DNA from: a virus
Virus record (IMG/VR): IMGVR_UViG_3300027850_000003
Span: 1 to 64,000 of that record
DNA: 64,000 nucleotides
Reading direction: 5' to 3' (one strand)
Shown here: positions 3,641-62,598 of the stretch, one piece after another
Numbering within the stretch: position 1 is the first letter of the stretch
How the letters are laid out: every line of letters starts with the position of its first letter
The notes under the pieces: generated by a model
The model's input: the letters and a program-made list of their open reading frames with translations, nothing else
What the model was told of the DNA's origin: nothing
Databases searched by the model: none
Translations under genes and position numbers: made by a program

Positions 3641-4375
3641 ATGTTCACTAAGACTTCTGCTCAAATTGGTGGTTTTAAGGCAACTGTATTTTTGGATAAT
3701 GACACTAACGAGTATTTTTACTCACTGACTTCTGTAGCTGAATTAGTAGCAAAACCTCCTTCTAGCCCCTCGGAATTTTTAACTTCTAGAGCCTTCAAAG
3801 CTAGTTATAGTAAGGCTTTTACCCCCTCGGAATTTTCCGATGAAACAGGCGCTAGATATAAATTGTTATCCTGTGACGTTGCCTTAGAATATCTGATGTA
3901 TTGGTGTCAGAAAGGTGATAAAAAAGCATCTGCTATTATTTTTGCATTGGCTCAAGAATCTTTAGAACTCAGAGCTAGAAAAGCATTTGGAACTCTCACT
4001 TTAGAAACCCTCTCAGATGTTCACAAATTGACTGATGACGCTCTTATTACAGCTTTAAGGATAAATGCTAAGGATGCTCACAACACCTTTCAAAGGGCGT
4101 GTTACGGCTCGAAAATGAATCCAAGTGCAGTCCATGATAGAGTGACAAAATTAGTATTCGGATATACTGCTAAAGAAGCTAGAGAACTCCCTATGACAGA
4201 TTTAGAAGACGATGTTTGGTTAAATCAAGCTATTGGTATTAATCATGAACACACTAAGGACAGAGCGTTAATGCAAACTTACCGAGACGTTAAGAATAAA
4301 ATTTTCTCCTATAGAAAAGGAACTTGGGAAGAGAAAGTAGATAGAGCTTATCAAGAAGCTACAGAAAATATTTAG
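3641..4375 (+). CDS. Conserved protein of unknown function, paralogue of the 235-969 gene
   Basis: 244 residues, colinear with the 235-969 product (shared FYSLTSV, FLTSRAFKASY, YLMYWCQKG, QESLELRARKAFG and KLVFGYTAKEARELP). A TATAAA-like box about 30 bp upstream of the ATG (around 3614) may be its promoter. The gene is monocistronic, ended by the hairpin at 4385-4428. A function in phage regulation is possible but nothing in the sequence proves it. Confidence 0.75.
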   Translation: MFTKTSAQIGGFKATVFLDNDTNEYFYSLTSVAELVAKPPSSPSEFLTSRAFKASYSKAFTPSEFSDETGARYKLLSCDVALEYLMYWCQKGDKKASAIIFALAQESLELRARKAFGTLTLETLSDVHKLTDDALITALRINAKDAHNTFQRACYGSKMNPSAVHDRVTKLVFGYTAKEARELPMTDLEDDVWLNQAIGINHEHTKDRALMQTYRDVKNKIFSYRKGTWEEKVDRAYQEATENI

Positions 4376-10217: not shown

Positions 10218-10970
10218 TTATCTAAGAATATTTTGAATAAAGTTTGAATAATCTTCTTTTATAGGTAAGTTTTCATCCACCTTTAATACTCTTCTAGTAG
10301 TTACAACTTCTTTTTCAGTAATTGGGTTATATCCTTTCTTTTCATAATTCTTCCAATAAATACCTGTACCTCTTCTCTGCCAAGTAGGAGTATCATTAAA
10401 GTTAATCCCGTTACTAAATAAAAGTTCATTTTTAAATTCTTTAGTTTGCTTATCTAGCATTGAAGTAGCTTTTCTAGCGCTATTACCTAGCTTTCTTAAT
10501 GTCCAATAAGACCATCCATTTAACGCACATCTGGTAGCATCCGCCTGTCTCCAGTTAAAATAATCTACTACTAAAGATTTATTAGCTAAAGAGCAAAGTC
10601 TGCTATCAAAACTAACTATCTTATTAGAAATGTAAGAAAAATTAGAGCTAGCGATACTAGCTGAGATAGATACTAGCTTTTCAACTGATTTGTCAAAAAG
10701 ATTCCAATTGTCAATAGGAAATAAAATAGATATTTCATCTGACTCAGTATAAGCATAAAGTCCTTCTAATTCAAGCATTAAAGCTTCAGTAGTCTCTACC
10801 ATGAAGTTATGAAATTTACAATCAAAAGGTTTGTTAAAATTCTCTAATTTAGTAAATTTAGAAAAAGAACGTCCATCAACTCTAATTATTGTATATGTTT
10901 CAGGTAGTAGTTTTAAACTGTGAAAATATTCAAAAGAACGCATCTTAGTCTCAAACATATCATTGTTCAT
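10218..10970 (-). CDS. Thg1-like 3'-5' RNA polymerase (tRNA-His guanylyltransferase family)
   Basis: 250 residues, typical of Thg1-like proteins (TLPs). The two-metal catalytic residues are visible as R30-V-D32-G33-R-S-F-S-K-F and YTESD78-E79-I; SFDSRLCSL and the YFNWRQADATRCALNGWSYW stretch with R-K-L-G downstream are family hallmarks. Eukaryotic Thg1 adds G-1 to tRNA-His; bacterial and phage TLPs add nucleotides 3'-to-5' to repair 5'-truncated tRNAs. Together with the RNA ligase at 36534-37649 this suggests RNA repair during infection (inference). Preceded by the DUF932 gene. Confidence 0.88.
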   Translation of the reverse strand: MNNDMFETKMRSFEYFHSLKLLPETYTIIRVDGRSFSKFTKLENFNKPFDCKFHNFMVETTEALMLELEGLYAYTESDEISILFPIDNWNLFDKSVEKLVSISASIASSNFSYISNKIVSFDSRLCSLANKSLVVDYFNWRQADATRCALNGWSYWTLRKLGNSARKATSMLDKQTKEFKNELLFSNGINFNDTPTWQRRGTGIYWKNYEKKGYNPITEKEVVTTRRVLKVDENLPIKEDYSNFIQNILR

Positions 10971-11003: not shown

Positions 11004-12008
11004 TTATTTTCTCACTCCTTGAATAAATCTTTTGCTAATATTATTTACTTTCCCAAATACTGAATCGTATATCTTATTTACTCCTCTAGTAAAATGAACT
11101 ACCTCAGTTAAAGCATTAAATACTCTATAAGCTGAATACTTACCTTTTGATAACTCTGCTCCTTTCTGTTCTTCTAAGAGTCTCATAGTTTCCTTAAATA
11201 GGTAGTTACTATCATAGTGTTCTACATTCTCTAACTCTAATGAATATCTAACTAGCTCAGTAATCTCCTTAGAATTTAAATCTAAAGAGTTCCAATACTG
11301 GTATAACTTAACAGTCTCTTGGAATGAGAAATCTTCTATATCAAAAGAAGTAAGCAGACTCTTATAGGTTTGGCTAGCATTTCCTCTATGACTTATAGTA
11401 TATCTCTGGTCGAAGTTACTAAGAGACATTCTAAGAGTGTTATCGCATACTACTCTGGTAATAGTTGAGTAAATTGCATTAGCTCCCTTATGATTACTCA
11501 GAAACATAAGAGTTAGTAGTAAGTCATCTCCTTCTACTACTGATAAAGTATTTTGCTCTAATTGAACCCAGAACATTTTACCTTGAAATAAGACCCCTGA
11601 ACTGTAATATTGTAATTTATCAGGAAACTCACTTCTTAGTTTCTCTGCTTTATCTAATACTTCTTTATGTTGGATAATTTCGTAAATATCCGAAACTGAA
11701 GAATTTAAAATAGTATTAATATCAGGTCTAGTTAGATAATGAACATCTTCACTAGGACTGAACCTATAATATTCATGAGTAAAATACGGTTTCTTTTCTA
11801 CTATGATATTCGAGACATTAGTATGATATTCAATATCTTCCTTAGTTATATTTCTATCATTAATAACTGTTGGAACCATTTTGAAACTTTCACCAGTATA
11901 AATGTTTCGATTAGTAGTTCCTGACCACCAAGGGAGTTCCTTGCCAATAAAGGGAATTAAAAACTCGGAGTTATCATTGATAGCTTCAACTTCGATACCG
12001 TGTGTCAT
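11004..12008 (-). CDS. DUF932 family protein
   Basis: 334 residues, the usual length of the phage/plasmid DUF932 family, whose function is not established. Supporting segments: GIEVEAINDNSEFLIPFIGKELPWW at the N-terminus (split here in description), a central SSGVLFQGKMFWVQLEQN, NHKGANAIYSTITRVVCDNTL (family D...RVVCxNT pattern), and a C-terminal SAYRVFNALTEVVHFTRG. The leader carries 11-nt-loop hairpin B 28 nt upstream of the ATG. Confidence 0.8.
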   Translation of the reverse strand: MTHGIEVEAINDNSEFLIPFIGKELPWWSGTTNRNIYTGESFKMVPTVINDRNITKEDIEYHTNVSNIIVEKKPYFTHEYYRFSPSEDVHYLTRPDINTILNSSVSDIYEIIQHKEVLDKAEKLRSEFPDKLQYYSSGVLFQGKMFWVQLEQNTLSVVEGDDLLLTLMFLSNHKGANAIYSTITRVVCDNTLRMSLSNFDQRYTISHRGNASQTYKSLLTSFDIEDFSFQETVKLYQYWNSLDLNSKEITELVRYSLELENVEHYDSNYLFKETMRLLEEQKGAELSKGKYSAYRVFNALTEVVHFTRGVNKIYDSVFGKVNNISKRFIQGVRK

Positions 12009-12035
12009 AGGTTTTATCCTTTAGTTAAGTGAATG

Positions 12036-12056
12036 AGTAGTTAGTTACTCCCTACT
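12036..12056 (-). promoter_or_regulatory. Leader hairpin of the 11-nt-loop family (copy B)
   Basis: Minus strand: AGTAG - GGAGTAACTAA - CTACT, 28 nt upstream of the DUF932 start. Same loop as copies D, E and F but in a different flanking context. The 5-bp stem is perfect. Confidence 0.6.
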
Positions 12057-12097
12057 TTTCTATACTTTTACTTTCGTTTCTTATCTTACGAACGAGA

Positions 12098-12298
12098 CTA
12101 TTGTGATTTGGAGTTGGGGAAGAGAAGATTATTAGTCATAAAACAGAAGTTTGTATTATTTATTTTATCTTAAGGCTCCAGAATTAAAATTTAATACATT
12201 ATCGTTTCTATTTTTTCACTACTTTTTACTCTACTATCTTCTATTATTATATTTATTTTTAGAATTCATAAGTTTTACCTATTGTAATTTGGAGTTGG
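12098..12298. repeat. Imperfect 20-bp direct repeat straddling the left inverted repeat
   Basis: CTATTGTGATTTGGAGTTGG at 12098-12117 and CTATTGTAATTTGGAGTTGG at 12279-12298, 181 bp apart with one mismatch. One copy is outside and one inside the left 39-bp inverted repeat of the helicase-like island. Could be protein-binding sites or the trace of a duplication. Confidence 0.6.
12156..12194. repeat. Left 39-bp inverted repeat of the helicase-like island
   Basis: A perfect 39-bp inverted match to 14239-14277, with the GC-richest core CTTAAGGCTCCAG. Two further bases either side match with single mismatches. The pair encloses the 12475-14154 gene plus 280 bp of non-coding DNA on one side and 84 bp on the other. 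Hairpins 2 kb apart are not terminators, so end repeats of a mobile unit or recombination sites are more likely. Confidence 0.85.
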
Positions 12299-12474
12299 AT
12301 AGGAAATAGTGATGTTTTATTATCTAAAGTAGATAAATAGCGGGGAAAGATATATAAAATCGAGTAAGAACGCTTAAAAAAATATCTACTCAAAATGTAC
12401 TACTTTTAATTATAACCTTACTTTTTTTTGTACTATAATACTATTATAGCTCTTTATATACGAAAAAGTAATAG

Positions 12475-14154
12475 CTAAACTATCTCGTACCCTGCAACAG
12501 TTTTATTATTGACAGACTTTCTAGTAGCTTGAATATTAAAAATTCTCTCAATATCACTAGCTTTAGCTTTTTTCTCTAATCCAATATCCTCATAAAGTCT
12601 AGTTAAAATCACTTTTATATCCTTAGATAAGTAAAAACCAAGAGTGAAAAGATTCTTAACCTCTTTGTCTATAAACTCTTGTGATCTTAAGTTATTAAAT
12701 TCTTTTCTAATCTTATCCGGTTGAAATCCTAGTCTTTTATAATCTCTTTTAGATAAGACTCCAATAGTTTCTTTTATTAATGGACAAGCATTACTAGCAG
12801 CTTCTAAACTAATTTCGTCGTTGCAATAAGCTTTAATAATATTTCTTGCATTTTTACTAACTATAAAATCTAATTTGATGAAGGGGTTTTCTAAAATTTC
12901 AAATCTTTTACTTTCTTCATAAAAACAATTGATAGAAAGCCCATTCTTATAAACTTCAATGACATCTTTGTATCTCCTCTTCTCTAATAGGAGGAGTAGC
13001 TCATCAAAGTATACTTGTCCTTCTTCATTTCTAGCCAAATAACTATCTTCTGTGAATCCCTTAGCTGCTGCTTCTTTTTGCTTATCTGTTCCAGTATTAT
13101 AAAGACTTAACCAATCATTAGTAGTCTCAATTTTTGTTTCAATTATACTTTCAAATTCTTCTTTAGTAATACTTAAAGGATTTTCATTAAATATGTGGAT
13201 AATATAGTGCCTAAAAGGATTAGTTTCAGTTCTAATACGTCCAGCCACTTGAAAAATATCAGTGTCAATGGAAACTAATGTGTTTTTATTCCTGTTATTT
13301 GAGACAACAAAAGCTAAACCTGTATCTGAATAAATATCTACTCCTTTAAATGCACAGGAAATTATAAAATTGAACATTTTCTCTGGGTTATTAGCAGTAG
13401 AAATACCAAAATACCCTAATTTTTTCTTATTTTCTAATGTATTACTACAAATAACTCTACATTCACTTATTAATAGGTCACAAGATTCAATAATATCTCG
13501 AATCATAGTAACACTGTTGACATAAAAATAGGCAGCTTGAGGTTTTTTTCCGTCTATTTCAATGTCCAAGCATTCGTCTCTAAATTTAGCTACTATTTGC
13601 TTAACTTTATAAATCGGGTTAGTAGTTTTTAAGGGAGTAACTTTAACTTTTTCAATATTATCCCACTCTAATTCAGTATAAGGAAGGTTTTTTAATTGAG
13701 TAGGAAGAAACTCTTTCTCTATTGGAGTAGCTGAGATAAAACTTACTTTAGGAAAATTCTCAATTGTAGTTAGTAGAGTATTAATTGCTTTATTTCTATA
13801 AGCATAAGCGTCTAATAAGTCACTAAATTCATCAATAACAATGTGGTACAAAGGTGATATAAAAGAAGCTACTTTATGAAAAGAATCGTAAGTCACCATT
13901 ATTTTAGGTACTTCTGTATTCTCAATATAATCTTTTATTGTGACTTCAGTAACTCCTGAGTAAACCCCTAATATATCTTCTTTTCTTCTATTATTAGGGT
14001 ATTGAGCTACTTTATTATTTATCATAGCTACTGTAGGAACTACTAAGACTAGAGCATCTGAGTTCTCAAGAGCAAATGAACTACAACCACACCCTGTAAT
14101 TTTTTTGTCAACTATACCTAAAGGGATTTCTGAGTATTTGTCTGAATAATACAT
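12475..14154 (-). CDS. Degenerate SF2-helicase-like protein within an inverted-repeat island (paralogue of 60645-62477)
   Basis: 559 residues. Helicase-like motifs in order: a P-loop position reading TGCGCSSFALEN with no Lys (residues about 20-31), VLVVPT, motif Ia-like, a DEFS Walker B in HIVIDEFSDLLD, motif III FISATPI, a VNSVTMIRDII motif IV, and motif VI QVAGRIRTETNPFRH. This is the layout of replication-origin-binding/Bacteroides BT4734-like helicases with the K-T-I-T-G-x-G-A-T type P-loop. Motor core about 1-330; the C-terminal 65 residues (KDIKVILTRLYEDIGLEKKAKA, then DIERIFNIQATRKSVNNK) are shared with a GIY-YIG protein at 45064. Weak ribosome site. Whether it hydrolyses ATP is unknown. 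Confidence 0.7.
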   Translation of the reverse strand: MYYSDKYSEIPLGIVDKKITGCGCSSFALENSDALVLVVPTVAMINNKVAQYPNNRRKEDILGVYSGVTEVTIKDYIENTEVPKIMVTYDSFHKVASFISPLYHIVIDEFSDLLDAYAYRNKAINTLLTTIENFPKVSFISATPIEKEFLPTQLKNLPYTELEWDNIEKVKVTPLKTTNPIYKVKQIVAKFRDECLDIEIDGKKPQAAYFYVNSVTMIRDIIESCDLLISECRVICSNTLENKKKLGYFGISTANNPEKMFNFIISCAFKGVDIYSDTGLAFVVSNNRNKNTLVSIDTDIFQVAGRIRTETNPFRHYIIHIFNENPLSITKEEFESIIETKIETTNDWLSLYNTGTDKQKEAAAKGFTEDSYLARNEEGQVYFDELLLLLEKRRYKDVIEVYKNGLSINCFYEESKRFEILENPFIKLDFIVSKNARNIIKAYCNDEISLEAASNACPLIKETIGVLSKRDYKRLGFQPDKIRKEFNNLRSQEFIDKEVKNLFTLGFYLSKDIKVILTRLYEDIGLEKKAKASDIERIFNIQATRKSVNNKTVAGYEIV

Positions 14155-14192
14155 ACGCTGATTTAATTACTTTTTATGTTGTTTTATTTATT

Positions 14193-14216
14193 ATAACTCA
14201 CTTTATATATAAAAAA
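14193..14216 (-). promoter_or_regulatory. 24-bp box shared with the GIY-YIG gene upstream region (45941-45964)
   Basis: The minus strand contains TATATATAAAGTGAGTTAT preceded by Ts; 24 consecutive bases are identical at 45941-45964. In both cases the box lies 40-75 bp upstream of the gene start, where a promoter is expected. Two genes that also share a protein domain thus share a control sequence. Confidence 0.65.
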
Positions 14217-14238
14217 GTAAAAACCCACCTAGATTGTG

Positions 14239-14277
14239 TTAAATTTTAATTCTGGAGCCTTAAGATAAAATAAATAA
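14239..14277. repeat. Right 39-bp inverted repeat of the helicase-like island
   Basis: Exact reverse complement of 12156-12194. It lies upstream of the helicase-like gene, outside its promoter-like box. Flanking bases diverge apart from a short imperfect extension. Confidence 0.85.
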
Positions 14278-14468
14278 CACATAATCGTCATAATTATATA
14301 ATCTATTTCTTAATTTTCCCAGCATTATAGTAAGTGATTAGCTATTATTGTAGTTAAATTTAGAATTTCTAAAAATAGCTATAATAATAATCTTTCAGCT
14401 ACTAAAGATTTACTGAAAATTAGAAAGAATAGATAATTACCAGGGAGTTTTTAGGCTCCCTTTCTCAT

Positions 14469-14675
14469 TTACTCTTTCAACTCATAATCAGTACAATTCT
14501 CAGCGTGGTATATTTCAGAAGGGTTTACAGCACAAGGAAGATGCTCATTCCCATTATAAAATACACATTCTGAGCAAGTAGGAGGTAGTTCTTCTATTAT
14601 CTTATATAGCCAGTCAGGATCGAAATCTTCTGGTAAATCTTCTAGCTCTTCAAATCCATCTTTTTCAATAGTCAT
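14469..14675 (-). CDS. Hypothetical Cys-containing acidic protein, 68 aa
   Basis: Very acidic N-terminus, then CSECVFYNGNEHLPCAVNPSE and a last Cys in ENCTDYE: four Cys in a C-x2-C...C...C arrangement that could bind one zinc ion. Similar short Cys clusters are frequent in phage proteins of unknown function. AGGAG ribosome site lies inside the end of the upstream small gene. Confidence 0.6.
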   Translation of the reverse strand: MTIEKDGFEELEDLPEDFDPDWLYKIIEELPPTCSECVFYNGNEHLPCAVNPSEIYHAENCTDYELKE

Positions 14676-14677
14676 AA

Positions 14678-14815
14678 TTAACTCCTAGTAATAATTAAGT
14701 AGACCAATATTTCAGATAGTAGTAAGCAAGTGCCTAGTGAGTTGTTTTCTGTCATGATACTTATCTTTTTAAATGTTTCCCAAGTTTTTTCGGTCAACAC
14801 ATTATGAATTATCAT
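14678..14815 (-). CDS. Small hypothetical protein, 45 aa
   Basis: ATG at 14813-14815, 2 nt after the stop of the 63-aa gene, giving a 45-residue product with a hydrophobic C-terminal helix (LLLSEILVYLIITRS). Its last codons carry the AGGAG ribosome site of the next gene. Position and coupling support it; codon content is too short for certainty. Confidence 0.45.
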   Translation of the reverse strand: MIIHNVLTEKTWETFKKISIMTENNSLGTCLLLSEILVYLIITRS

Positions 14816-15729: not shown

Positions 15730-18700
15730 TTATTTACTTTTTTCTGGCATTAAACATTTATCTGAGTCACATCCTGTACTACCTGACTCCGCTACAAAGT
15801 CAAATCCTTTAGAATATTGGTTAACTAGAGTTACAAAGTCAGTAGAAATTTGTCTATTTTTTACTGCTTGCATTTCTTCTAAGTATTTCTCATGAGTAAT
15901 AGGTTCAAAAGGTAGTCTAGGAAACGTCTCTAGTGAGTCGAATTTCGCGAGTAAGGCAGCAGAGATGTAACCTTCATCATTTTGTATTAGGTTGTAGATA
16001 GCGGTTCCTAGTGGCTCGATTTCAGCTTCTGTGAGTTCGATAGTAGCTGAAACAGTATGAGTAGCATAGTATTTCTGAACTTGCATAAAAAAATCAAGTT
16101 GAGCTAGCACAGTGTTTTCGCTAGGGTTGTAATCTGCCTTATCCGCTATAGATGCCCAAGATACTTCTACTGGAATTTCTATTAACACTTCATTAACTCT
16201 TGGGTCATTTATGTCATTTAGTAGATTTCCATTTTCGTCTTTGCATGATTGAGAAGGAACAATATTATAGCCATAATCTTTACTAGCACTAACAATAGGA
16301 CTATTACTACTAAAAGTAATCCTACGAATATATCTAGTAGCTTTAGGAGCGTGCCAACCAGCCGAAGCATTAGTAAGTAAAGAAACGGAGCCTGAAGGTT
16401 GTACAACAGTATAACGATTAGGTTGTTTAATACTATGTCTTTTGCAATACTCTTCAACTGTTTCTCTTACACTATTTTTCCATAACTCTAAATAATAACG
16501 TTCAGTATCTAAGAAATATTGAGCTTCTGAAGAGTCTTTACTTCTTCCAGTTTTCCACCATAACAGCCAGTCAGCACCAAACTTATTGACAAAGAAATCG
16601 AATAATCCAGTAAAAGAAATTCCGATAATAGGATCAATTTCACGAGAATATTTAAAATCTTCAATATCAAATTCATGACTAAGTAAAGGTAAAGCTGCTA
16701 AGGTAGATGCTTTAAATGCTTCTACTTGTTCCAGTTCGTTATTTGGGTCTAAATTATTTAAATGTACTTGAGATAAGTTGCACAGAAATTTTTCACCTAA
16801 AACCTCAAAACAATTGTGAGTGACGATACCATTAGCAATAAAAGAGTTAGTTAATGGGACGTGTAAATCATAAACAGTTTCTTCTCCTACTTCTTTTACT
16901 GAAACTACATTAGAAGAATAACGTTTATTTACTGTCTCCTCTAAATAGTTTATTAAAGGTTTTTCTACCCATAAATCTGCTTGTTCTTGTTTAAGAGGAC
17001 AAAGAGGAAACCCAATTATTTCCACAAACCTATTAAAACTCTCAGCAAATATTGATAAAGTATAACTACCATTATTATTACTTATTTTTTTTGTACCATC
17101 TTTTAAAGTATACGGAACTCCTTTAGCTCCTGACTTTACAGCGCATCTAGTAGATGATATAATTCCTAAGTTTAAAAGTAAAATTTGTATTTGCTCTATA
17201 AATTTTTTTGATTTATTCACTAACAGTGCTTGACGAGCTACTGCTTTATTAATATTCCCTACTGAACCATCAGCAGAAAATAAACCTTGCAAAAAACCTA
17301 TAATAGTTTCTCTTCTCTCTTGAAAAAAGCTAACAGGTAACTCTTCTTTTGTTTGCACGTTTAATCTATCAAACCAATCACTTAACTTTAAAGAACAGGA
17401 TTTAAATTCATACACTCCTTTGTGTAGTCTAGGAATATATCTATGCTCAGTAATTGTCTCTAAAGCATAAAGAACTGTAGTTCCTGCTGTTAAATATTCT
17501 TTAGGATTAAATACGAATCCTTTAGCTAAATACTCCGCTCTATTTTTACTTCTGCTTTTCATTTTCACGTTATACCCATCACCATACCACCAACCTAGCA
17601 TTTGAGACTGTTCAGAATTAATATTATTCTTAGAATCTTCACCCCATTTTCCTTCTCCTTGTTGAAATAAAACTTTATGTTCGGAAGTTAAATTTTTAGT
17701 TTCTACCCAACCTTTATCCGTAAAATGTTGATGATTAGAAGTAGATTTAACAGACAAACCATTAGCTAGTTTTACTTCATAAATAGCTTTAACTCCTGTA
17801 GAAAATGCAATAGCCTGTGTTTGGATTACTCCAGAAAGACCAATAGTTCTTAAATCTACAGAAGTCTCAAAAGTTTTACCAGCTAAATCTTGAATAGGAA
17901 CTAAACCATTGGCAGTAGCAATTAGAGTATCCCCAATTAGGCAGGGGTTGGCAGAATACCGTTGCATTCGATGTTCTAGTTCTTTATTATCCATTTCTTT
18001 TAAAGATAGGAGATAGTTACTACCATCTCTTCTTGACTGACAATAGAGTGCAATAAACTCTAGCTTCTTTTCGCTTGTATTCAGTAAATCAACATTACCT
18101 CTAGCAATAGCTTCTGGAACATATTGAATTGCCCCTTCTCCTGAGTAGTATTGCTTTCTAACTGCTTCAATAATAGTTTCCAAATCAGGTTTATTATGGT
18201 AACAAAGAGTATGATTTCCAAATCTAAGCATATCTCGGTCAGGGTCAATTTTCCAGTTACCTTGATCATCCTGAACCCATAAATTATCTTTTGACTCAGA
18301 AAAGAATTTATCGCTTGGAGTTCCTTGATTAATTCTCGCACTTCTTCTGATGTTCCCGGAAACGGCTATTACCCCATGAATAGCTAAGATTTTACATATT
18401 TCTAAACTATTTAATTTTCTTCCTACTGAAGTGTTTAGTATTTTGATAATATTTTTAAGCCCTTCTTCTAGTCTCTCAGGGTTACTTAATCCTCCAAAAC
18501 CTTTAAGAATTTTCCCAGCAGGTCTTACTTCCGATAAATCTATATAAAGGTGAATTTTTTCATATTTTACATTTTCAAAGTTATAAGAGAAATCAAAGGA
18601 TGCAAATTTTAATAAGTCAGTAGCAATATCAACCCAACCTTCTTTAGAATCTCCTACTTTATATTTAATAACTAAAGCTTTAGAATCTGAGTCTAGTGAA

Positions 18701-19182
18701 CAAGTATAATTGCTACTCTCAAAGATATTATTCTCATTCCATTGAGAGCCTAGCTCAACTACTTCTTTTACTTCAATAGAGTAATTAATCTCGGGCAACT
18801 GACTAATAATATGCTCCTCAACTACTGTCCCAACTCCACATCCCATTAGTAAAGCTCTAAAGTTAAATCTAAACGCTTTCCAGCTATCTACTGGAACTGA
18901 GGCACAATTATATGCACCAATAAAGTTCTTCTGCTGTTTTACCCAGTCAGTACCTCCGATCCAAAACCATCTACCAGATACAAAGACAATGTTCTTATAA
19001 AAATACTCCCTAACTAACTCTAATTCTTTATCTGTCAACAATCCAAAATCTTGTAATCCTTTAATCGCTCTATCTTTAGCTTCTTGAGCTGTCTCCTTAG
19101 CCCCAGTTGCAGAAGTTCGAGAATAGCTACGAAGAAATAACGGGTAAGCAGTAGTAGCAGTGAAATCAGTATTCTGAGGCAT
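15730..19182 (-). CDS. nrdJ: Adenosylcobalamin-dependent (class II) ribonucleotide reductase with an intein
   Basis: 1150 residues, of which 377 are an intein, leaving a 773-residue enzyme like monomeric class II reductases. It reduces ribonucleotides to deoxyribonucleotides through a thiyl radical generated from adenosylcobalamin. Visible: FVSGRWFWIGGT near residue 67, the N-terminal redox Cys region YNCASVPVDSW (about 91-101), MGCGVGT at 113-119, the active-site NPC split by the intein so that Cys791 follows it (CFEVLGEKF), the PSGSVSLLTNASAGWHA substrate loop (about 929-945), and a C-terminal redox pair C1138/C1143 in GCDSDKC. Links to ThyX, dUTPase and the PduO-like enzyme by pathway. Confidence 0.93.
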   Translation of the reverse strand: MPQNTDFTATTAYPLFLRSYSRTSATGAKETAQEAKDRAIKGLQDFGLLTDKELELVREYFYKNIVFVSGRWFWIGGTDWVKQQKNFIGAYNCASVPVDSWKAFRFNFRALLMGCGVGTVVEEHIISQLPEINYSIEVKEVVELGSQWNENNIFESSNYTCSLDSDSKALVIKYKVGDSKEGWVDIATDLLKFASFDFSYNFENVKYEKIHLYIDLSEVRPAGKILKGFGGLSNPERLEEGLKNIIKILNTSVGRKLNSLEICKILAIHGVIAVSGNIRRSARINQGTPSDKFFSESKDNLWVQDDQGNWKIDPDRDMLRFGNHTLCYHNKPDLETIIEAVRKQYYSGEGAIQYVPEAIARGNVDLLNTSEKKLEFIALYCQSRRDGSNYLLSLKEMDNKELEHRMQRYSANPCLIGDTLIATANGLVPIQDLAGKTFETSVDLRTIGLSGVIQTQAIAFSTGVKAIYEVKLANGLSVKSTSNHQHFTDKGWVETKNLTSEHKVLFQQGEGKWGEDSKNNINSEQSQMLGWWYGDGYNVKMKSRSKNRAEYLAKGFVFNPKEYLTAGTTVLYALETITEHRYIPRLHKGVYEFKSCSLKLSDWFDRLNVQTKEELPVSFFQERRETIIGFLQGLFSADGSVGNINKAVARQALLVNKSKKFIEQIQILLLNLGIISSTRCAVKSGAKGVPYTLKDGTKKISNNNGSYTLSIFAESFNRFVEIIGFPLCPLKQEQADLWVEKPLINYLEETVNKRYSSNVVSVKEVGEETVYDLHVPLTNSFIANGIVTHNCFEVLGEKFLCNLSQVHLNNLDPNNELEQVEAFKASTLAALPLLSHEFDIEDFKYSREIDPIIGISFTGLFDFFVNKFGADWLLWWKTGRSKDSSEAQYFLDTERYYLELWKNSVRETVEEYCKRHSIKQPNRYTVVQPSGSVSLLTNASAGWHAPKATRYIRRITFSSNSPIVSASKDYGYNIVPSQSCKDENGNLLNDINDPRVNEVLIEIPVEVSWASIADKADYNPSENTVLAQLDFFMQVQKYYATHTVSATIELTEAEIEPLGTAIYNLIQNDEGYISAALLAKFDSLETFPRLPFEPITHEKYLEEMQAVKNRQISTDFVTLVNQYSKGFDFVAESGSTGCDSDKCLMPEKSK
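16813..17943 (-). other. Intein with LAGLIDADG homing endonuclease inside NrdJ
   Basis: Residues 414-790 of the reductase. Starts with Cys (CLIGDTLIATANG, splicing block A), continues with STSNHQHF (block B, TxxH-like) and ends with SFIANGIVTHN followed by Cys (blocks F and G). Between them lie two DOD-type motifs, MLGWWYGDG (about 528-536) and IIGFLQGLFSADGSVG (about 627-642), so it is a full homing intein of normal size. Insertion is directly before the active-site Cys, a highly conserved site that inteins favour. All splicing residues look intact, so active splicing is likely. Confidence 0.93.
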
Positions 19183-45063: not shown

Positions 45064-45867
45064 TTAACAATTAATAATTTTAAGCATTGCAACTTTTTTA
45101 CCTTGCACTCTTTTATCATGTTCTTTGATAGTGTACCATTGAGACAAATCAGTCGCCTTAGCAATTTTGTTAATGCCTAAAATAGTATAAATGTTCTGTA
45201 GTTCTTTTTTAATAAGTGTTCTATCCACTAATTGACCTACTTTCAAGTCAAGAATACTGACAATCTTACTTTCCATACTAAGAGTAATTTTCAAGTTAAG
45301 TAATACAGCAGTGAAATTACTTGCTCTGTAATTTAAAGCTTTCATTTTCTCAACTCCTAATTTTTTATAAGCTTCTTCTATTAAAGGAAAACTAATCTCA
45401 ATTTCTTTAATTACTTCTTGATTATTATCTTCTTTAGCTTGGATATATTCTAAACATAGCTTCTTAAAACTAGGTTTTTTAGCCAATCTCAGCCTATTTA
45501 AAGTAGAAGATGAAGTTATATTAGCCTCTACTTCTTCCAGACAATATTTAGTAGGTAAGTTACTAACAATTAAAGATAATGTATCGGGATAAACTTTATC
45601 AATATTATACTTAGGTTTTAGGACGCTAATTAAGTATGTTTCAAGTAACTCACAATCTACTAAAGAGTTACAAAAGTAGTATTCTATTTTACTAATTTCT
45701 GTTTTCCAAGATTCTGTAATACTATTCTTTTTAAGTTCAAAATTTAAATGTCGTTGCAACCTATTAATTAGATTAGAACTTTTTCCTATATAGGCTAGTT
45801 GAGTTCCAACATAGAATAGATAAACTCCTTTTTTGTTCTTAACTGGTCTGAGGTTAAAATATTTCAT
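45064..45867 (-). CDS. GIY-YIG endonuclease fused to the C-terminal domain of the helicase-like proteins
   Basis: 267 residues from the ATG at 45865-45867; the TTG 12 nt upstream is less likely because both GIY-YIG paralogues begin M(K/T)YFNL(R/K)PV. Catalytic N-terminus: KKGVYLFYVGTQLAYIGKSS, then RLQRHL and LETYLISVLKPKYNIDK. Residues about 130-267 are a domain related to the end of both helicase-like proteins: LGVEKMKALNYRASNF against VGTKRIRTLNYAKVAI, and ELQNIYTILGINKIAKATDL against QVLGKIYKDFKIEKTPKAVEL. Not flanked by an obvious inverted repeat but it carries the 24-bp upstream box. Likely a homing-type nuclease of the same element family. Confidence 0.8.
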   Translation of the reverse strand: MKYFNLRPVKNKKGVYLFYVGTQLAYIGKSSNLINRLQRHLNFELKKNSITESWKTEISKIEYYFCNSLVDCELLETYLISVLKPKYNIDKVYPDTLSLIVSNLPTKYCLEEVEANITSSSTLNRLRLAKKPSFKKLCLEYIQAKEDNNQEVIKEIEISFPLIEEAYKKLGVEKMKALNYRASNFTAVLLNLKITLSMESKIVSILDLKVGQLVDRTLIKKELQNIYTILGINKIAKATDLSQWYTIKEHDKRVQGKKVAMLKIINC

Positions 45868-45940
45868 AAGTGAAAACAACGACTTAAGTTATTAATATCA
45901 TTGTACACTATTTTTAATCTTAAGTATACTGTTTTATTAA

Positions 45941-45964
45941 ATAACTCACTTTATATATAAAAAA
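45941..45964 (-). promoter_or_regulatory. 24-bp box shared with the helicase-like gene upstream region
   Basis: Identical over 24 bp to 14193-14216, 74 bp upstream of the ATG. AT-rich with a TATATATAAAG core. The preceding GTTTTATT is also shared. Confidence 0.65.
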
Positions 45965-47077: not shown

Positions 47078-47491
47078 TTAGAGCCCGTGGGCAAACTCTA
47101 AATATTGCTTTTCGATATCGCAAATATTCCCATTGACTACTTCTTTAACAAGGTCAACATTAACCTCCTCCCACGTCAAATCTTTCGACAATTGTACAAC
47201 GACTGGACGAGGGTTAGACATTATCTCCTGCCCTACTTCTGTTAGCGCTACAAAAGTGTTTTCGACAATAGCAAAGTGATAATCTACAATCTGCGAAGAA
47301 AGCTGTATATACTCCATTTCAGCACCTGAGATGTTCCCTTTGGCACACTCTAATTCGAGATCAACTTCAACTTCTGAGGAAATAAAGTCTTTTGAAAGTT
47401 TTAAGACGATTGGGCGAGGGGATTTCATAACTTCGACACCAAACCGAGAGTTTGCTACTAAGTCGTTGTCTAAGATTTTAAAGTGACGCAT
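47078..47491 (-). CDS. Hypothetical protein with internal tandem duplication, 137 aa
   Basis: Two halves match: VEVMKSPRPIVLKLSKDF with VEVDLELECAKGNISGAEMEYI (about 19-65) and QEIMSNPRPVVVQLSKDL with VNVDLVKEVVNGNICDIEKQYL (about 88-135). Each is a P-R-P-(I/V)-V strand-helix unit. Function unknown; the duplication suggests a repeat-type binding protein. Confidence 0.6.
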   Translation of the reverse strand: MRHFKILDNDLVANSRFGVEVMKSPRPIVLKLSKDFISSEVEVDLELECAKGNISGAEMEYIQLSSQIVDYHFAIVENTFVALTEVGQEIMSNPRPVVVQLSKDLTWEEVNVDLVKEVVNGNICDIEKQYLEFAHGL

Positions 47492-47544
47492 TTTCTTTAT
47501 CTTTCTAGTGTTAGATTACTACTGATTGCAGTAAAAACTAGAAT

Positions 47545-47594
47545 GCTCTAACTAAGACTTTCACTTAGTTGTAAGATATAAGAACCTATAGAGC
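47545..47594 (-). ncRNA. tRNA-like three-way junction T2
   Basis: Minus strand: GCTCTA - TAGG TTCTTATAT CTTA - CAA - CTAAG TGAAAGT CTTAG - T - TAGAGC. A 6-bp closing stem, a 4-bp D-arm-like hairpin (one G-T pair) and a 5-bp T-arm-like hairpin. Same plan as T8, T10 and T11 with different stem sequences. Confidence 0.6.
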
Positions 47595-47619
47595 GATTAG
47601 AATTAGGCGTTAAGTGTGA

Positions 47620-55595: not shown

Positions 55596-55883
55596 TTATG
55601 GGAATAGTCTATTTGACTCTGCAATTAAAGAGATAAGCTCAACAGTTTCAAATGTCCTTTGAGATTTTTCACTTCCTAGTGAGATATAATTGAAATCTCT
55701 GTCACATATCAAATCTAAATACTGAATAGAATTAGCACGTATTCCGACTTTACTCATTGTTACTATCTGATAAGCGTTCCCATTGGTGAAGTGTTCAGTG
55801 AATGTCACAACGTCCCAATCGCGGAATAAATCAGGTGCATCTTTAACTGTGGAAGCTACTGTGTACTGTGTTTGAGTAGTCAT
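55596..55883 (-). CDS. Hypothetical protein, 95 aa, paralogue of 56800-57393
   Basis: Begins MTTQTQYTVASTVKDAPDLF and contains YLDLICDRDFNYISL; the 56800 gene begins MTTQTQPTVASTVKGDVPEL and contains FTDLICDRDFNYLSA. So the two are a recent duplicate pair, this one ending earlier. Leader hairpin at 55904-55923 and element T8 lie upstream. Function unknown. Confidence 0.6.
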   Translation of the reverse strand: MTTQTQYTVASTVKDAPDLFRDWDVVTFTEHFTNGNAYQIVTMSKVGIRANSIQYLDLICDRDFNYISLGSEKSQRTFETVELISLIAESNRLFP

Positions 55884-55903
55884 TGTGTATCCTTTGTGTA
55901 AAA

Positions 55904-55923
55904 GTCACCCGGAATTAGGTAAC
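55904..55923 (-). promoter_or_regulatory. CCGG leader hairpin (copy 1)
   Basis: Minus strand: GTTAC - CTAATTCCGG - GTGAC, a 5-bp stem (one G-T), 20 nt before the ATG at 55883. Same sequence plan at 57410-57429 and 57898-57917, each time just downstream of a T-arm-like element. Confidence 0.55.
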
Positions 55924-55926
55924 AAA

Positions 55927-55976
55927 GCTCTAATCAAGACTTTCACTTGATAGTAAGATATAAGAACCTATAGAGC
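55927..55976 (-). ncRNA. tRNA-like three-way junction T8
   Basis: Minus strand: GCTCTA - TAGG TTCTTATAT CTTA - CT - ATCAAG TGAAAGT CTTGAT - TAGAGC. Compared with T2, T-arm bases differ on both sides of the stem yet pairing is kept. Confidence 0.6.
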
Positions 55977-55984
55977 AGTTAGAC

Positions 55985-56191
55985 TTAGTAATTTTCCGTT
56001 TCTACGGTAATCTTGAATCCCACTACCTTTAGATACATTTTGAAGTGCGATTTCTCAACACCTTTACCTCCTACATCTACAAAATTACTCTTATAGTAGA
56101 CGTTGAACCGCCCATCATCAGTGTACATTCCCACATTCAGTGCATCAGAAAACAAGTCGATAGAACCGTTAGCAGTTACGATTAATGTCAT
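55985..56191 (-). CDS. Hypothetical beta-rich protein, 68 aa, paralogue of 48382-48579
   Basis: Start taken at ATG 56189-56191, the position that aligns with the start of the 48382 paralogue; a GTG at 56228-56230 would overlap element T9. Reads MTLIVTANGSIDLFSDALNV, then GMYTDDGRFNVYYKSNFVDV. Function unknown. Confidence 0.55.
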   Translation of the reverse strand: MTLIVTANGSIDLFSDALNVGMYTDDGRFNVYYKSNFVDVGGKGVEKSHFKMYLKVVGFKITVETENY

Positions 56192-56229
56192 GGTCTTAGC
56201 AGCTAGTCGGTAAAGAATTACTAGCAACA

Positions 56230-56290
56230 CTCTTTCTAGGAGTCGAACCTAGATCAAGCTAACCCGATTATTTAATCGTATAGCAAAGAG
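56230..56290 (-). ncRNA. tRNA-like element T9
   Basis: Minus strand: CTCTTT - GCTATACGATTAAATAATCG - GGTTAGC TTGAT - CTAGG TTCGACT CCTAG - AAAGAG. A 6-bp closing stem, a long single arm (GCTA / TAGC around CGATT / AATCG) and a canonical-looking T-arm. It fills the gap between two small genes. Confidence 0.55.
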
Positions 56291-56296
56291 AAGAAA

Positions 56297-56695
56297 TTAG
56301 ATGCGGGGATAATTTTGTATATCCGTCTCGCAGAACTCTAGGTATTCTACACTATTTAGCTCCACCTGCTCGTTGTAAGCAGCGTTTGTATCCGAGATAT
56401 GCTCAGGTTGTTTAGTAACAGGTTTTACTAATTTAGCTTTGGGATTGCGTGTGCGTTGTGTCGCTAGGTTTCCCCAGCTTACTACCTCAAAGTTTGGTTC
56501 GATCCAGTTCCCCCAGTCACTTTTATTAGTAGAGCCAATTGGAAAGTGAGCCGGACTTTGACTCGCCCACAGTTTAGCTTGACCTATTGCCTTTACCTCC
56601 GACAGGAAGAAGCTAACAGTGATCCCGCCTGGATTAGGTACACTCCAGAACTCATTAAGATTGACAGAAGTGTTAATTGTGTTAGTGGTAATCAT
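56297..56695 (-). CDS. Hypothetical protein, 132 aa
   Basis: Not recognised. Beta-rich with many Trp (NEFWSVPNPGGITVSFFLSE, AKLWASQSPAHFPIGSTNKS, DWGNWIEPNFEVVSWGNLAT). Ends with an acidic stretch. Part of the orphan operon. Confidence 0.5.
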   Translation of the reverse strand: MITTNTINTSVNLNEFWSVPNPGGITVSFFLSEVKAIGQAKLWASQSPAHFPIGSTNKSDWGNWIEPNFEVVSWGNLATQRTRNPKAKLVKPVTKQPEHISDTNAAYNEQVELNSVEYLEFCETDIQNYPRI

Positions 56696-56743
56696 GGTAC
56701 AAGATAAGCTACATGGAATAAGAAATTTCTCATATAGCTAATT

Positions 56744-56791
56744 CCCCAAATAAGACTTTCACTTAAAAGACAGATATAAGAACTGTTAGGG
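56744..56791 (-). ncRNA. tRNA-like three-way junction T10
   Basis: Minus strand: CCCTAA - CAG TTCTTATAT CTG - TCTTT - TAAG TGAAAGT CTTA - TTTGGGG region. The closing stem is CCCTAA / TTGGGG with one T-G pair; both the closing stem and the D-arm-like stem differ from T2, T8 and T11 but still pair, and the TTCTTATAT and TGAAAGT loops are identical. Confidence 0.55.
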
Positions 56792-56799
56792 CGGTTGAG

Positions 56800-57393
56800 T
56801 TAGATGATAAAACAGAACACGTTACGGATGAACTCAACACTTTTCATTTTCTCTCCGTCAATTTTCCCGTAGTGGAATAAAGCAGAACATAACCTATCAT
56901 CAATTTCACCTACACTTCCTCTGAACGCTCCTAGTATTCGCCAAAAGCAGATACTTACTACACAATCATCATCACATTGAATGTGGATTATAGCATCTGA
57001 TATTGGGTGCAAACCTTCTGCACGGAATACCAAGTTACCTAGTGAATATTGCAAGATTTTGGCTGATGAGTCTAAGACTTGTTCCTTCAAGGATTGACTT
57101 TTGATCGTACCCGTAGCTGACAAGGTTTTTACCTCATAATCCAGTTCCCGTTGCCTGATGCTTTCTAGTGCGTTATCTGATGCTGAGAGATAATTGAAAT
57201 CTCTGTCACATATTAAGTCAGTAAAGTGATTAGAGCTGGCGCTCAGTTCATTTTTACTCGTCACTACTATCTGGTAGATACCTCCGTAATTAGCAACATA
57301 TTCAGTCGATGTTACAACGTGCCAACTCGAAAATAGCTCAGGTACGTCACCTTTAACTGTAGAAGCTACTGTAGGCTGTGTTTGAGTAGTCAT
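56800..57393 (-). CDS. Hypothetical protein, 197 aa, paralogue of 55596-55883
   Basis: Start taken at ATG 57391-57393 (MTTQTQPTVASTV), matching the paralogue and preceded by CGGAGAAAG; a GTG 21 nt upstream falls in the leader hairpin. N-terminal 85 residues match the paralogue; the remaining part (LQYSLGNLVFRAEGLHPISD, AIIHIQCDDDCVVSICFWRI) is unique. Function unknown. Confidence 0.6.
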   Translation of the reverse strand: MTTQTQPTVASTVKGDVPELFSSWHVVTSTEYVANYGGIYQIVVTSKNELSASSNHFTDLICDRDFNYLSASDNALESIRQRELDYEVKTLSATGTIKSQSLKEQVLDSSAKILQYSLGNLVFRAEGLHPISDAIIHIQCDDDCVVSICFWRILGAFRGSVGEIDDRLCSALFHYGKIDGEKMKSVEFIRNVFCFII

Positions 57394-57409
57394 GTGCTTT
57401 CTCCGATAA

Positions 57410-57429
57410 GTCACCCGGTATTAGGTAAC
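57410..57429 (-). promoter_or_regulatory. CCGG leader hairpin (copy 2)
   Basis: Minus strand: GTTAC - CTAATACCGG - GTGAC, 16 nt before the ATG at 57393. Confidence 0.55.
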
Positions 57430-57432
57430 GAT

Positions 57433-57483
57433 GCTCTAGTTAAGATTTTCACTTAACAGTTAGGATATAAGAACCTATAGAGC
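57433..57483 (-). ncRNA. tRNA-like three-way junction T11
   Basis: Minus strand: GCTCTA - TAGG TTCTTATAT CCTA - ACT - GTTAAG TGAAAAT CTTAAC - TAGAGC. All three stems are perfect Watson-Crick; relative to T8 the G-T pair of the D-arm-like stem has become G-C. Confidence 0.6.
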
Positions 57484-57490
57484 GGTTGAG

Positions 57491-57868
57491 TTAATCCTTT
57501 AGACGATCCATGATGTCATCTTTTGTCATCCAAGCTTGATACATTGAGTCTAACTTAGAATGAATTCGGCAACCTGTACTGATAAACTCTTCCCCGTCCT
57601 CATCAAGGTGAGACTGGAATGAGAAACCGCACGATGATTTAAAAATGCAATGTACCAGTTCCCCGACGATGTAGGGAGTGCCAACTACTTTTAACTGCCA
57701 CCGGATCGAGTTTGGATTACCGAGATAGTCAAGAGTCTCAAACTGAAAACCCGCATCGACTAAGTTGTGCTCAATCTTTAGTGCCTGTGAGACTTGGGTT
57801 AACAGTTCAGCAACCTCTGGGTTAGAAGAGAGATACTGTTGGCAGAATGCAGTTTGTGTAATAGCCAT
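57491..57868 (-). CDS. Hypothetical protein, 125 aa
   Basis: Not recognised. Helical N-terminus (AFCQQYLSSNPEVAELLTQV), beta middle (WQLKVVGTPYIVGELVHCIF), and a Cys-containing acidic end. First gene of the 46-58 kb minus-strand block, so its leader in the gene-free region may carry the main promoter. Confidence 0.5.
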   Translation of the reverse strand: MAITQTAFCQQYLSSNPEVAELLTQVSQALKIEHNLVDAGFQFETLDYLGNPNSIRWQLKVVGTPYIVGELVHCIFKSSCGFSFQSHLDEDGEEFISTGCRIHSKLDSMYQAWMTKDDIMDRLKD

Positions 57869-57897
57869 TTGATTTTCTCCGTTTGTTGTGTGTAAAA

Positions 57898-58998: not shown

Positions 58999-59673
58999 AT
59001 GGCATTTGAAAAGAAATGGGATTGGGAGTCAATCAGAATGGACTATATGATAGGAGAGATATACATTAATAAGAGTGGTTTAGAAACACATCGACCATTC
59101 ACCATCGCTCGACTATCTGAAAAACATGGAATTCCAAACCCTACAATAGCTGAAAGATGTAAAAAAGAAAAATGGGTTCATCAACGTAACCTATTAGACT
59201 CTCAACTAAAAAGAAGAATGACTGAAGGTAAAGTCACTTCTATATTAGGAGAAGCTAGTATGTTTGATAACTTAGCTCTTGCACAACTAGGTAAAACTAG
59301 CGAATTAGTAAACGCCTATTTTAAACAATATACTGATGTCTTAGCTAGGGACATTAACACTTATGAGTTAGAGTCAGAAGTATACGAACCTCCTAAGATT
59401 AATCCCAGAGACTTAAAGGATATAGTAGGAGTAATCAAAGAAATCCATACCTTATCCAAAGTAATAATGGGAACAGATACTCTCCAAGACAAACTAGAAG
59501 AGATACAAAATAAAAATAAGACTAAACAATTTAAACCCACTGAGATGAATGACAGGATCAAAAAACTCTTAGAGGAAAGACAACGAATGCAATCTATGAT
59601 GAGCCAAGAGAAACGAGCAGTTGAGGAAGTAAATATCTTCAACGTAAAAACAATAACTGAGATAGAATCTTAA
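58999..59673 (+). CDS. Putative terminase small subunit
   Basis: 224 residues. N-terminal WDWESIRMDYMIGEIYINKS then RPFTIARLSEKHGIPNPTIA ERCKKEKW matches the helix-turn-helix pattern (W..IR..Y..G........P.TL..LA..HG....T...R...E.W) of small terminases and related DNA-binding phage proteins. The C-terminal half is coiled-coil-like with LKDIVGVIKEIHTLSKVIMG and KKLLEERQRMQSMMSQEKR. In the family it recognises the packaging site and recruits the large subunit. No large terminase follows, so the assignment is only fair. Confidence 0.45.
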   Translation: MAFEKKWDWESIRMDYMIGEIYINKSGLETHRPFTIARLSEKHGIPNPTIAERCKKEKWVHQRNLLDSQLKRRMTEGKVTSILGEASMFDNLALAQLGKTSELVNAYFKQYTDVLARDINTYELESEVYEPPKINPRDLKDIVGVIKEIHTLSKVIMGTDTLQDKLEEIQNKNKTKQFKPTEMNDRIKKLLEERQRMQSMMSQEKRAVEEVNIFNVKTITEIES

Positions 59674-60345: not shown

Positions 60346-60481
60346 TATTTTATTATTAATAGTTTTCTAGTTACTCCTTACATTATAGCAAGATAAGAGC
60401 TATTCTCCTAGCTACTAATATAGGAATGAGAGAACGAGTTCAGGCGAGAGAAAGAATGAGACTTAGTTACCTTGAGTTATT

Positions 60482-60507
60482 GGAAGAGTAGGATTCTTCC
60501 TTTTTTT
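60482..60507 (+). terminator. Plus-strand terminator upstream of the second island
   Basis: GGAAGA - GTAGGAT - TCTTCC followed by seven T. It would stop rightward transcription before the helicase-like island at 60580. Confidence 0.7.
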
Positions 60508-60579
60508 ACTGTAACTATACTTTTGGTTAGTCTATTATTTCAGATATTTTTGGAAAAACTTACAAAACTTATTTATTAG

Positions 60580-60610
60580 ATTCCATTTTTTACAGTAATT
60601 ATTCAGTATA
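60580..60610. repeat. Left 31-bp inverted repeat of the second helicase-like island
   Basis: Perfect inverted match to 62507-62537, containing TTTTTTACAGTAATTATTC. The repeat runs into a TATAAT (60607-60612) that may be the promoter of the gene. The sequence is unrelated to the 39-bp repeat of the first island although the enclosed genes are paralogues. Confidence 0.85.
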
Positions 60611-60644
60611 ATAGATATATAAACTAATAAAAAAGGTAATATCT

Positions 60645-62477: not shown

Positions 62478-62506
62478 TTACCTTTTCTCTAAGTATTTTT
62501 ATCCTA

Positions 62507-62537
62507 TATACTGAATAATTACTGTAAAAAATGGAAT
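62507..62537. repeat. Right 31-bp inverted repeat of the second helicase-like island
   Basis: Exact reverse complement of 60580-60610, 30 nt after the stop codon. The following TTATAATAGAGG may be the promoter of the GIY-YIG gene downstream, which lies outside the repeat. Confidence 0.85.
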
Positions 62538-62598
62538 ACTAAGTTATAATAGAGGTAGTTAAGTGAGAACTCTCAGCATTAAATTACCTCTTTCTTTT

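Follow-up and report, generated by a model that had tools for sequence, protein, structure and literature searches.

A helicase-like gene framed by unit-specific repeats in a phage genome as a candidate single-gene mobile cassette

The window analysed here, 64,000 nucleotides corresponding to positions 1 to 64,000 of the 129,969-bp virus record IMGVR_UViG_3300027850_000003 (G000), contains at 12156-14277 a single helicase-like gene between two perfect 39-bp inverted repeats. The product resembles helicases of superfamily 2 (SF2) and is called HLP (SF2-helicase-like protein) in the following, with the copies in G000 designated A to E. Many HLP genes are framed by inverted or direct repeats of 13-66 bp, the sequence of which is specific to each unit, and closely related copies occupy different loci in different phages. 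With a probability of roughly 0.5, we consider the HLP gene and its framing repeats to be a small mobile phage cassette of a homing-like kind, in which the helicase is either cargo or a helper. Large-terminase-like, portal-like and 3228-aa tape-measure-like open reading frames (ORFs), recognised by inspection, indicate that G000 is a tailed phage. It was compared with six related virus records (G001-G006); other HLP genes are named by record and coordinate (e.g. G004_57491), and L-numbers denote additional HLP loci.

An earlier note on this DNA had described the two arms as exact reverse complements that enclose only a 559-aa gene and short non-coding DNA. Sequence comparison verified their coordinates and match (Table 1), and a single ORF was found between them; the non-coding DNA measures 276 bp on the 3' side of this ORF and 80 bp on the 5' side. 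When the arms are extended to 12152-12198 and 14235-14281, 45 of 47 positions match and 2036 bp lie in between. The view that the enclosed gene is no known transposase also held: Pfam and PHROGs yield no transposase for HLP-A or other HLP units, and at best a DEAD box in relatives. Inspection of the sequence that borders the arms of A, B and D on the outside revealed no matching short direct repeat that could be a target-site duplication, and an Rfam search of 11900-14700 gave no match.

A search of G000 with protein A returned five full HLP copies, 35-49% identical to A, as well as a C-terminal HLP remnant at 88966-89166 (L009 5466-5666). An exact-match scan of the same genome found ten inverted pairs of at least 20 bp. 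In only three of these is the distance between the arms below 30 kb, and all three frame an HLP gene (A, 39 bp; B, 31 bp; D, 26 bp). If gaps are allowed, the arms of B grow to about 65 bp (60576-60640 against 62477-62542, 85% identity) and reach the region of the start and stop codons. To compare HLP genes with other genes, the 150-bp flanks of each gene were matched against each other as inverted sequences, without gaps, and the highest score (+1/-2) was recorded for 15 HLP genes from G000 and the six related records and for 293 other ORFs of at least 200 aa from the same genomes. Eight of the 15 HLP genes scored 13-33 (B, 33; D, 26; G002_19462, 20; G001_90731, 17; G002_102813 and G004_37166, 15 each; G004_57491, 14; G001_20141, 13), while the best control reached 11 and none of the 293 reached 13. 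As G001_90731 and G002_102813 are one locus in G001 and G002, the eight genes represent seven independent loci. On one side the 39-bp arms of A exceed the 150-bp frame; with 300-bp flanks, A scored above all shuffles. Direct flank repeats were also in excess (C, 17; G001_90731 and G002_102813, 16; A and G006, 14) relative to a 99th percentile of 12 in the controls, a few of which score higher. Since the genome-wide scan, the flank shuffles and the 293 control genes give nothing comparable away from HLP genes, the repeat of HLP-A is not a product of chance. Flank repeats also occur outside this phage group, at L111/L112 (28/31 bp), L136 and L102 (55-bp direct).

Repeat sequence varies between units: in G000 the complete arms of A, B and D have no further copy, and arms are shared only between HLP-C and G004_57491 and within the same-locus pair G001_90731/G002_102813. 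The expectation that a search with the 39-bp repeat would find further copies beside similar genes thus failed: its 20-bp core has no exact match in viral_contigs, and G000 holds only the two arms, because each HLP unit has its own repeat. We rejected the idea of family-wide terminal repeats on the same ground, as the arms differ between units.

In the C family, the repeats move with their gene. HLP-C and G004_57491 are 80% identical, with a synonymous divergence (dS) of 1.1, and lie at different loci: HLP-C adjoins a tail-tube-like gene, and G004_57491 is found among genes that match 35-60 kb of G000. An element of about 62 bp (TGACATATTTTAT...TTTATGTCA) flanks both genes on both sides (E about 1e-12 each), and a search of the seven phage records and additional loci, about 720 kb in all, found no other copy. 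Homology between the two units runs from the upstream to the downstream element and then ends. As the repeats are present at two loci and homology stops at them, they accompany the gene, which is what a mobile unit calls for. The two copies form a direct repeat in G000 and an inverted one in G004, so that the upstream copy must have turned round in one lineage, and inverted and direct frames are two states of one arrangement. The HLP remnant starts at the end of the downstream element of unit C and is most similar to the C-terminus of HLP-A (59-60%); from its position, it looks as if the HLP-C unit had replaced the rest of an older A-like unit.

Relocation and empty sites were found for other copies. 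HLP-E is 86% identical to G002_90238, a value exceeded by only one of 70 reciprocal best pairs between the phages (median 54.4%). G002_90238 sits between homologues of the G000 gene at 129183 and of the portal-like gene at 1870. The G002 homologues of two genes on either side of the E cluster in G000 (117631 and 122576) are separated by about 6 bp, and no HLP is present there. At the HLP-D site, five relatives have no HLP and only small ORFs between the same two genes. Presence and absence at the same site are thus seen among related phages for D and for the position of E. The closest relative of HLP-A (69%) is located in the terminase-proximal region of G001. In a tree of the HLPs, the G000 copies pair with copies of three phages, and the pairs of A, C, D and E have supports of 0.999-1.0. 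Single cases could be explained by old duplication and loss, but the tree joins the G000 copies with three different phages. Base-level junctions did not emerge at the empty D sites: the flanks align only as far as the neighbouring genes, and the D arm cannot be recognised there. For the neighbour genes of locus A no homologues were found in the relatives, and a search via its DUF932 neighbour gave no relatives of the locus; an empty site for locus A was not found for this reason.

No family in Pfam or PHROGs covers HLP-A, although relatives match the DEAD family in Pfam at E 4e-5. Across 40 HLP sequences, K17-x3-G21-x-G23, D108-E109, A142-T143 and Q302-xx-x-R306-x-R308 are invariant. Motif I does not have the canonical Walker A form GK[ST] but reads K17-x3-G21-x-G23-x-S/T, with the invariant lysine displaced upstream, and helicase activity is not assured because this lysine precedes the GxG. 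An AlphaFold model of HLP-A made with the 40 sequences has a mean confidence (pLDDT) of 87.7; its residues 1-430, which were used for structure comparison, fit DEAD/DEAH and DinG helicases (eIF4A and DbpA, Z about 21; DinG, Z 19.6). HLP-A is therefore predicted to adopt an SF2 helicase fold of two RecA-like domains with conserved helicase motifs. The last 80 residues are modelled as helix, strand, helix, helix, strand, strand, an order of elements from which alone we read the tail as winged-helix-like. Sequence searches of the PDB with HLP profiles gave nothing or weak, meaningless matches. Family scans found no nuclease family in the HLPs, no Rep family match in 17 HLPs (so the HUH Rep nuclease fused to a helicase, as in Helitrons, is lacking in these) and no match to Herpes_ori_bp, the Pfam family of herpesvirus-type origin-binding helicases, which the HLPs may resemble. 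HLP relatives are present in cyanobacterial (Pseudanabaena, 37%), Bacteroidota and Bacillota genomes, in many viral contigs and in a few named phages. The ratio of nonsynonymous to synonymous divergence (dN/dS), 0.04-0.12, shows purifying selection on the proteins.

Nuclease genes are frequent neighbours. GIY-YIG genes adjoin B (truncated), E, G002_19462 and L103, and in G000 two such genes, at 45064 and 121036, carry the HLP-type tail. When 32 genes, nearly all of them HLP neighbours, were scanned, GIY-YIG, MUG113 and T5orf172 were the commonest Pfam families. In Psychrobacter phage D'Alembert (OV696620.1), an HNH gene directly follows the HLP homologue (26.5% identity over 60% of A). This resembles the helicase and nuclease neighbourhoods above, but the nuclease is HNH and not GIY-YIG, and the repeat screen, which took in this locus, showed no conspicuous long repeat in its flanks. 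A further observation concerns L117, L123, L127, L131, L134 and L143, loci of distant phages, where a nuclease gene of MUG113/T5orf172-type appearance (GIY-YIG superfamily) overlaps or closely follows the HLP stop codon; an operon of helicase and nuclease may on this evidence be widespread.

Two further kinds of sequence mark the surroundings of HLP genes. The first is a semi-palindromic boundary element of about 70 bp (TTATTATT...TTTTAGA...TCTAAATTTAACT...AATAATA), which was found beside A, G001_90731, G002_102813 and G006_39173, on both sides of the gene in G006, and only beside HLP genes. Its stability as a DNA fold exceeds all shuffles in G002 and G006 and stays within them in G000 and G001, for which reason a designation as a strong DNA hairpin was dropped in favour of "semi-palindromic". 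The second is a set of intergenic repeats (T1-T3), 91-96% identical, confined to the flanks of A, B, C and E outside the end repeats; beyond the window they extend over 86783-86828 and 119129-119232. They may have been left by exchange between HLP loci, or may mark a preferred target. The T repeats lie upstream of the gene on the gene strand at C and B, and upstream on the other strand at E; the TATTATT-type boundary element lies downstream in G001, G002 and G006. At HLP-A, both landmarks lie outside the 39-bp arms and on the opposite sides relative to the gene. These swapped landmarks are most simply explained by an inversion of the segment between the arms; with two landmarks to go by, this proposed inversion is a lead, not a result.

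How such a unit might spread can be outlined, with the role of every protein being one that we infer. A tentative proposal is a new kind of phage mobile element, in which a one-gene SF2-helicase unit with a DNA-binding tail spreads, and may invert, together with its own end repeats, by way of replication or of a nuclease that acts in trans and has the same kind of tail. In the account that we favour, the winged-helix-like tail would bind the repeats of its own unit, and a GIY-YIG or HNH nuclease, often neighbouring and often with a like tail, would cut the DNA at or near the repeats. As the phage replicates and recombines, repair of the break would copy in the cassette from a sister genome. 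The SF2 motor would remodel DNA at the repeats by strand invasion, branch migration or opening of the semi-palindromes. The gene of HLP-A could in addition flip between its perfect 39-bp arms, and the landmarks outside them suggest that it may have done so in the past.

Several observations weigh against mobility of this kind. The repeats demonstrably travel only in the C pair; neither phage of the HLP-E pair has repeats, and the 39-bp arms of A are absent from its 69% relative. No junction of an HLP pair was seen at base level, the flanks of the pairs being hard to align because dS is 0.8-2.0. Relocation could have come about by old duplication and loss or by ordinary phage recombination. Most of the distant HLPs, from Bacteroidota and Bacillota, lack flanking repeats. 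No nuclease gene adjoins HLP-A, C or D, and the one next to B looks truncated. Finally, the upstream arms of B, D, G001_90731, G002_19462, G004_37166 and L112 overlap or adjoin the HLP promoter. The selfish unit bounded by inverted repeats that the earlier note had proposed is partly supported: the gene belongs to a multi-copy, repeat-bounded family with members at different loci, empty sites and, in C, travelling repeats, but the 39-bp sequence itself does not recur, and the helicase is a putative agent of movement or copying.

The position of these upstream arms fits a regulatory function, in which HLP would be autoregulated, its tail binding operators in the promoter and behind the gene, and the genes would relocate by ordinary phage recombination. 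G000 has three copies of the promoter-like sequence of HLP-A (TTACTTTTTTATATATAAAGTGAGTTATAAT): one before A, one past the stop codon of A, and one ahead of the GIY-YIG gene at 45064, where 45930-45964 is 92% identical to the region upstream of HLP-A. A perfect match of 39 bp, however, far exceeds the need of an operator, the copies are found only at the two gene ends, including a 3' end without obvious operator use, and the C family keeps both end copies at two loci, where homology stops at them. None of the repeats of A, B, C and D was seen as an ordinary operator away from its gene. We regard a purely regulatory account as rather unlikely, and the repeats may serve as operators alongside mobility or instead of it.

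In a second alternative, HLP acts as an initiator-like helicase with the repeats as its origin, and the cassette is a mobile replication module whose competitors are attacked by like-tailed GIY-YIG proteins. Odn of phage ICP1, an origin-directed nuclease that attacks PLE origins and shares its DNA-binding domain with RepA, is a precedent (PMC8263062). Odn and RepA, a nuclease of the GIY-YIG superfamily and a DNA-acting replicon protein, have this domain in common, and repeated semi-palindromic sites are involved. The putatively DNA-binding HLP tail is likewise common to GIY-YIG nucleases and a candidate replication protein, with repeated semi-palindromic elements nearby; the HLP case differs in that the partner is an SF2 helicase, the shared part is a C-terminal winged-helix-like tail and not RepA_N, and both genes are in one phage. 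The tail common to motor protein and nuclease and the AT-rich semi-palindromic elements of about 65 bp beside the gene would suit such a module. A GC-skew minimum lies near the terminase-proximal HLP in G000, G001 and G004, but gene direction could explain it, and we rejected skew as origin evidence on account of this confounding. Five copies per genome with differing repeats, the lack of a skew extreme at the other copies, the lack of a primase or Rep domain in the HLPs and the DNA-polymerase-like gene of the phage itself (by inspection) argue against an origin module, to which we give little credence.

The 39-bp repeat might also be an invertible switch, a form of phase variation: recombination of one arm with the other would flip HLP-A and so switch its expression on or off. 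This would agree with the perfect arms, with T3 on the left and the boundary element on the right, the reverse of their placing at other HLP loci relative to the gene, and with the upstream boundary element of the C family, which is inverted between G000 and G004. But the promoter-like sequence of HLP-A lies between the arms, so that an inversion would carry it along with the gene, a dedicated invertase was not seen, and C, E and several relatives have no long inverted repeats, which makes a switch quite improbable. Inverted chimeras occur in amplified DNA, and the source record is apparently metagenome-derived; yet an assembly or amplification artefact, or chance, is barely credible, since the pattern is present at three loci of one record and in several units of independent records, with arms that are imperfect and conserved within families, and is lacking in shuffles and in the 293 control genes.

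Among known mobile elements, transposons of the insertion sequence (IS)/DDE type also consist of one gene between terminal inverted repeats. The HLP unit, taken as a mobile cassette, differs from them by the lack of a transposase, by the target-site duplication that was not seen and by repeats that are not common to the family. Transpovirons are likewise parasitic viral DNA with terminal inverted repeats, and they carry a helicase gene. They are 7-kb multi-gene episomes of eukaryotic giant viruses (PMC7031253, PMC8877843), whereas the HLP unit comprises about 2 kb and one gene within a phage genome. The closest likeness is to homing endonuclease genes, which are single-gene selfish phage cassettes at scattered loci, with GIY-YIG or HNH genes nearby and a presumed spread by break repair. 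To our knowledge, free-standing homing genes as a rule have no framing repeats. The HLP unit has a frame of unit-specific inverted or direct repeats, and its mobile gene encodes an SF2 helicase without a nuclease domain. Free-standing homing genes and collaborative homing in phages have been described (PMC10448857, PMC2988022). For a repeat-bounded mobile phage unit with only a helicase, a literature search that covers few subscription journals found no published description, and there is a fair chance that the HLP unit merits a class of its own among single-gene phage mobile cassettes. If the cassette reading is true, phage genes could move without a transposase or nuclease in their own unit: a motor that remodels DNA, given a tail that binds DNA specifically and end repeats to match, would be enough, and partner nucleases or replication would provide the breaks. 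A large family of DEAD-like helicases that lacks annotation in phages as well as bacteria would thereby be accounted for, and a motor and a nuclease with one kind of tail would make targeting by the tail directly testable.

Table 1. Features of the HLP units and their surroundings (G000 coordinates unless stated; those up to 64,000 are also window positions).
Feature	Position	Strand	Basis or remark
Intergenic repeat T3, outside HLP-A left arm	12075-12099	+	96% shared with HLP-C flank 86783-86807
HLP-A left arm, perfect 39-bp inverted repeat	12156-12194	+	exact reverse complement of right arm
Possible degenerate half copy of boundary element, left of HLP-A	12242-12278	.	37 nt, 81%; below or at shuffle maximum in second test
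Direct copy of HLP-A promoter-like sequence, just past stop codon	12442-12471	-	sequence match
HLP-A, 559-aa SF2-helicase-like protein, C-terminal winged-helix-like tail (predicted)	12475-14154	-	ORF, motifs, model
Promoter-like sequence upstream of HLP-A	14189-14220	-	three copies in whole genome
HLP-A right arm, perfect 39-bp inverted repeat	14239-14277	-	exact reverse complement of left arm
Semi-palindromic boundary element (~70 bp), TATTATT type, outside HLP-A right arm	14330-14399	-	homologues beside HLP genes
GIY-YIG nuclease with HLP-type C-terminal tail	45064-45879	-	36% to HLP-C, E 7e-12
Intergenic repeat T1	60416-60469	+	91% identical to HLP-E flank 119129-119182, inverted
Third, imperfect copy of HLP-B arm core	60497-60518	+	19/22
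HLP-B left arm, perfect 31-bp inverted repeat	60580-60610	+	exact-match scan
HLP-B	60684-62477	+	33% identical to A over aligned length; ORF can begin at 60645
HLP-B right arm	62507-62537	-	exact-match scan
GIY-YIG-like ORF, 110 aa, directly after HLP-B right arm	62563-62895	+	shared HLP tail not found; apparently truncated
C-family elements (~62 bp), G000	86957-87022 and 88901-88967	direct to each other	sequence search
HLP-C	87131-88843		protein-A search
HLP-D arms, perfect 26-bp inverted repeat	102446-102471 and 104340-104365	inverted pair	exact-match scan
HLP-D	102559-104241 (match), 102520-104304 (ORF)		protein-A search
HLP-E	119410-121086		protein-A search
GIY-YIG gene with HLP tail	121036-121827		protein-A search
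C-family elements (~62 bp), G004	57366-57430 and 59290-59356 (G004)	inverted to each other	sequence search

Elsewhere in the window, 10218-10970 is a phage gene for tRNA-His guanylyltransferase (Thg1), and 15730-19182 encodes a class II (B12-dependent) ribonucleotide reductase that is split by an intein with a LAGLIDADG homing endonuclease domain. Two similar proteins of 258 and 244 aa with the look of Bro/antirepressor types are encoded at 193-969 and 3641-4375, and their genes have a 24-bp exact direct repeat in common (754/4163). Intergenic regions at 55596-57889 and 47490-47596 have clusters of exact direct repeats (18-24 bp) in common that are unrelated to the HLPs; one example is GTAAGATATAAGAACCTATAGAGC at 47571 and 55953, and these repeats are possibly shared promoters.
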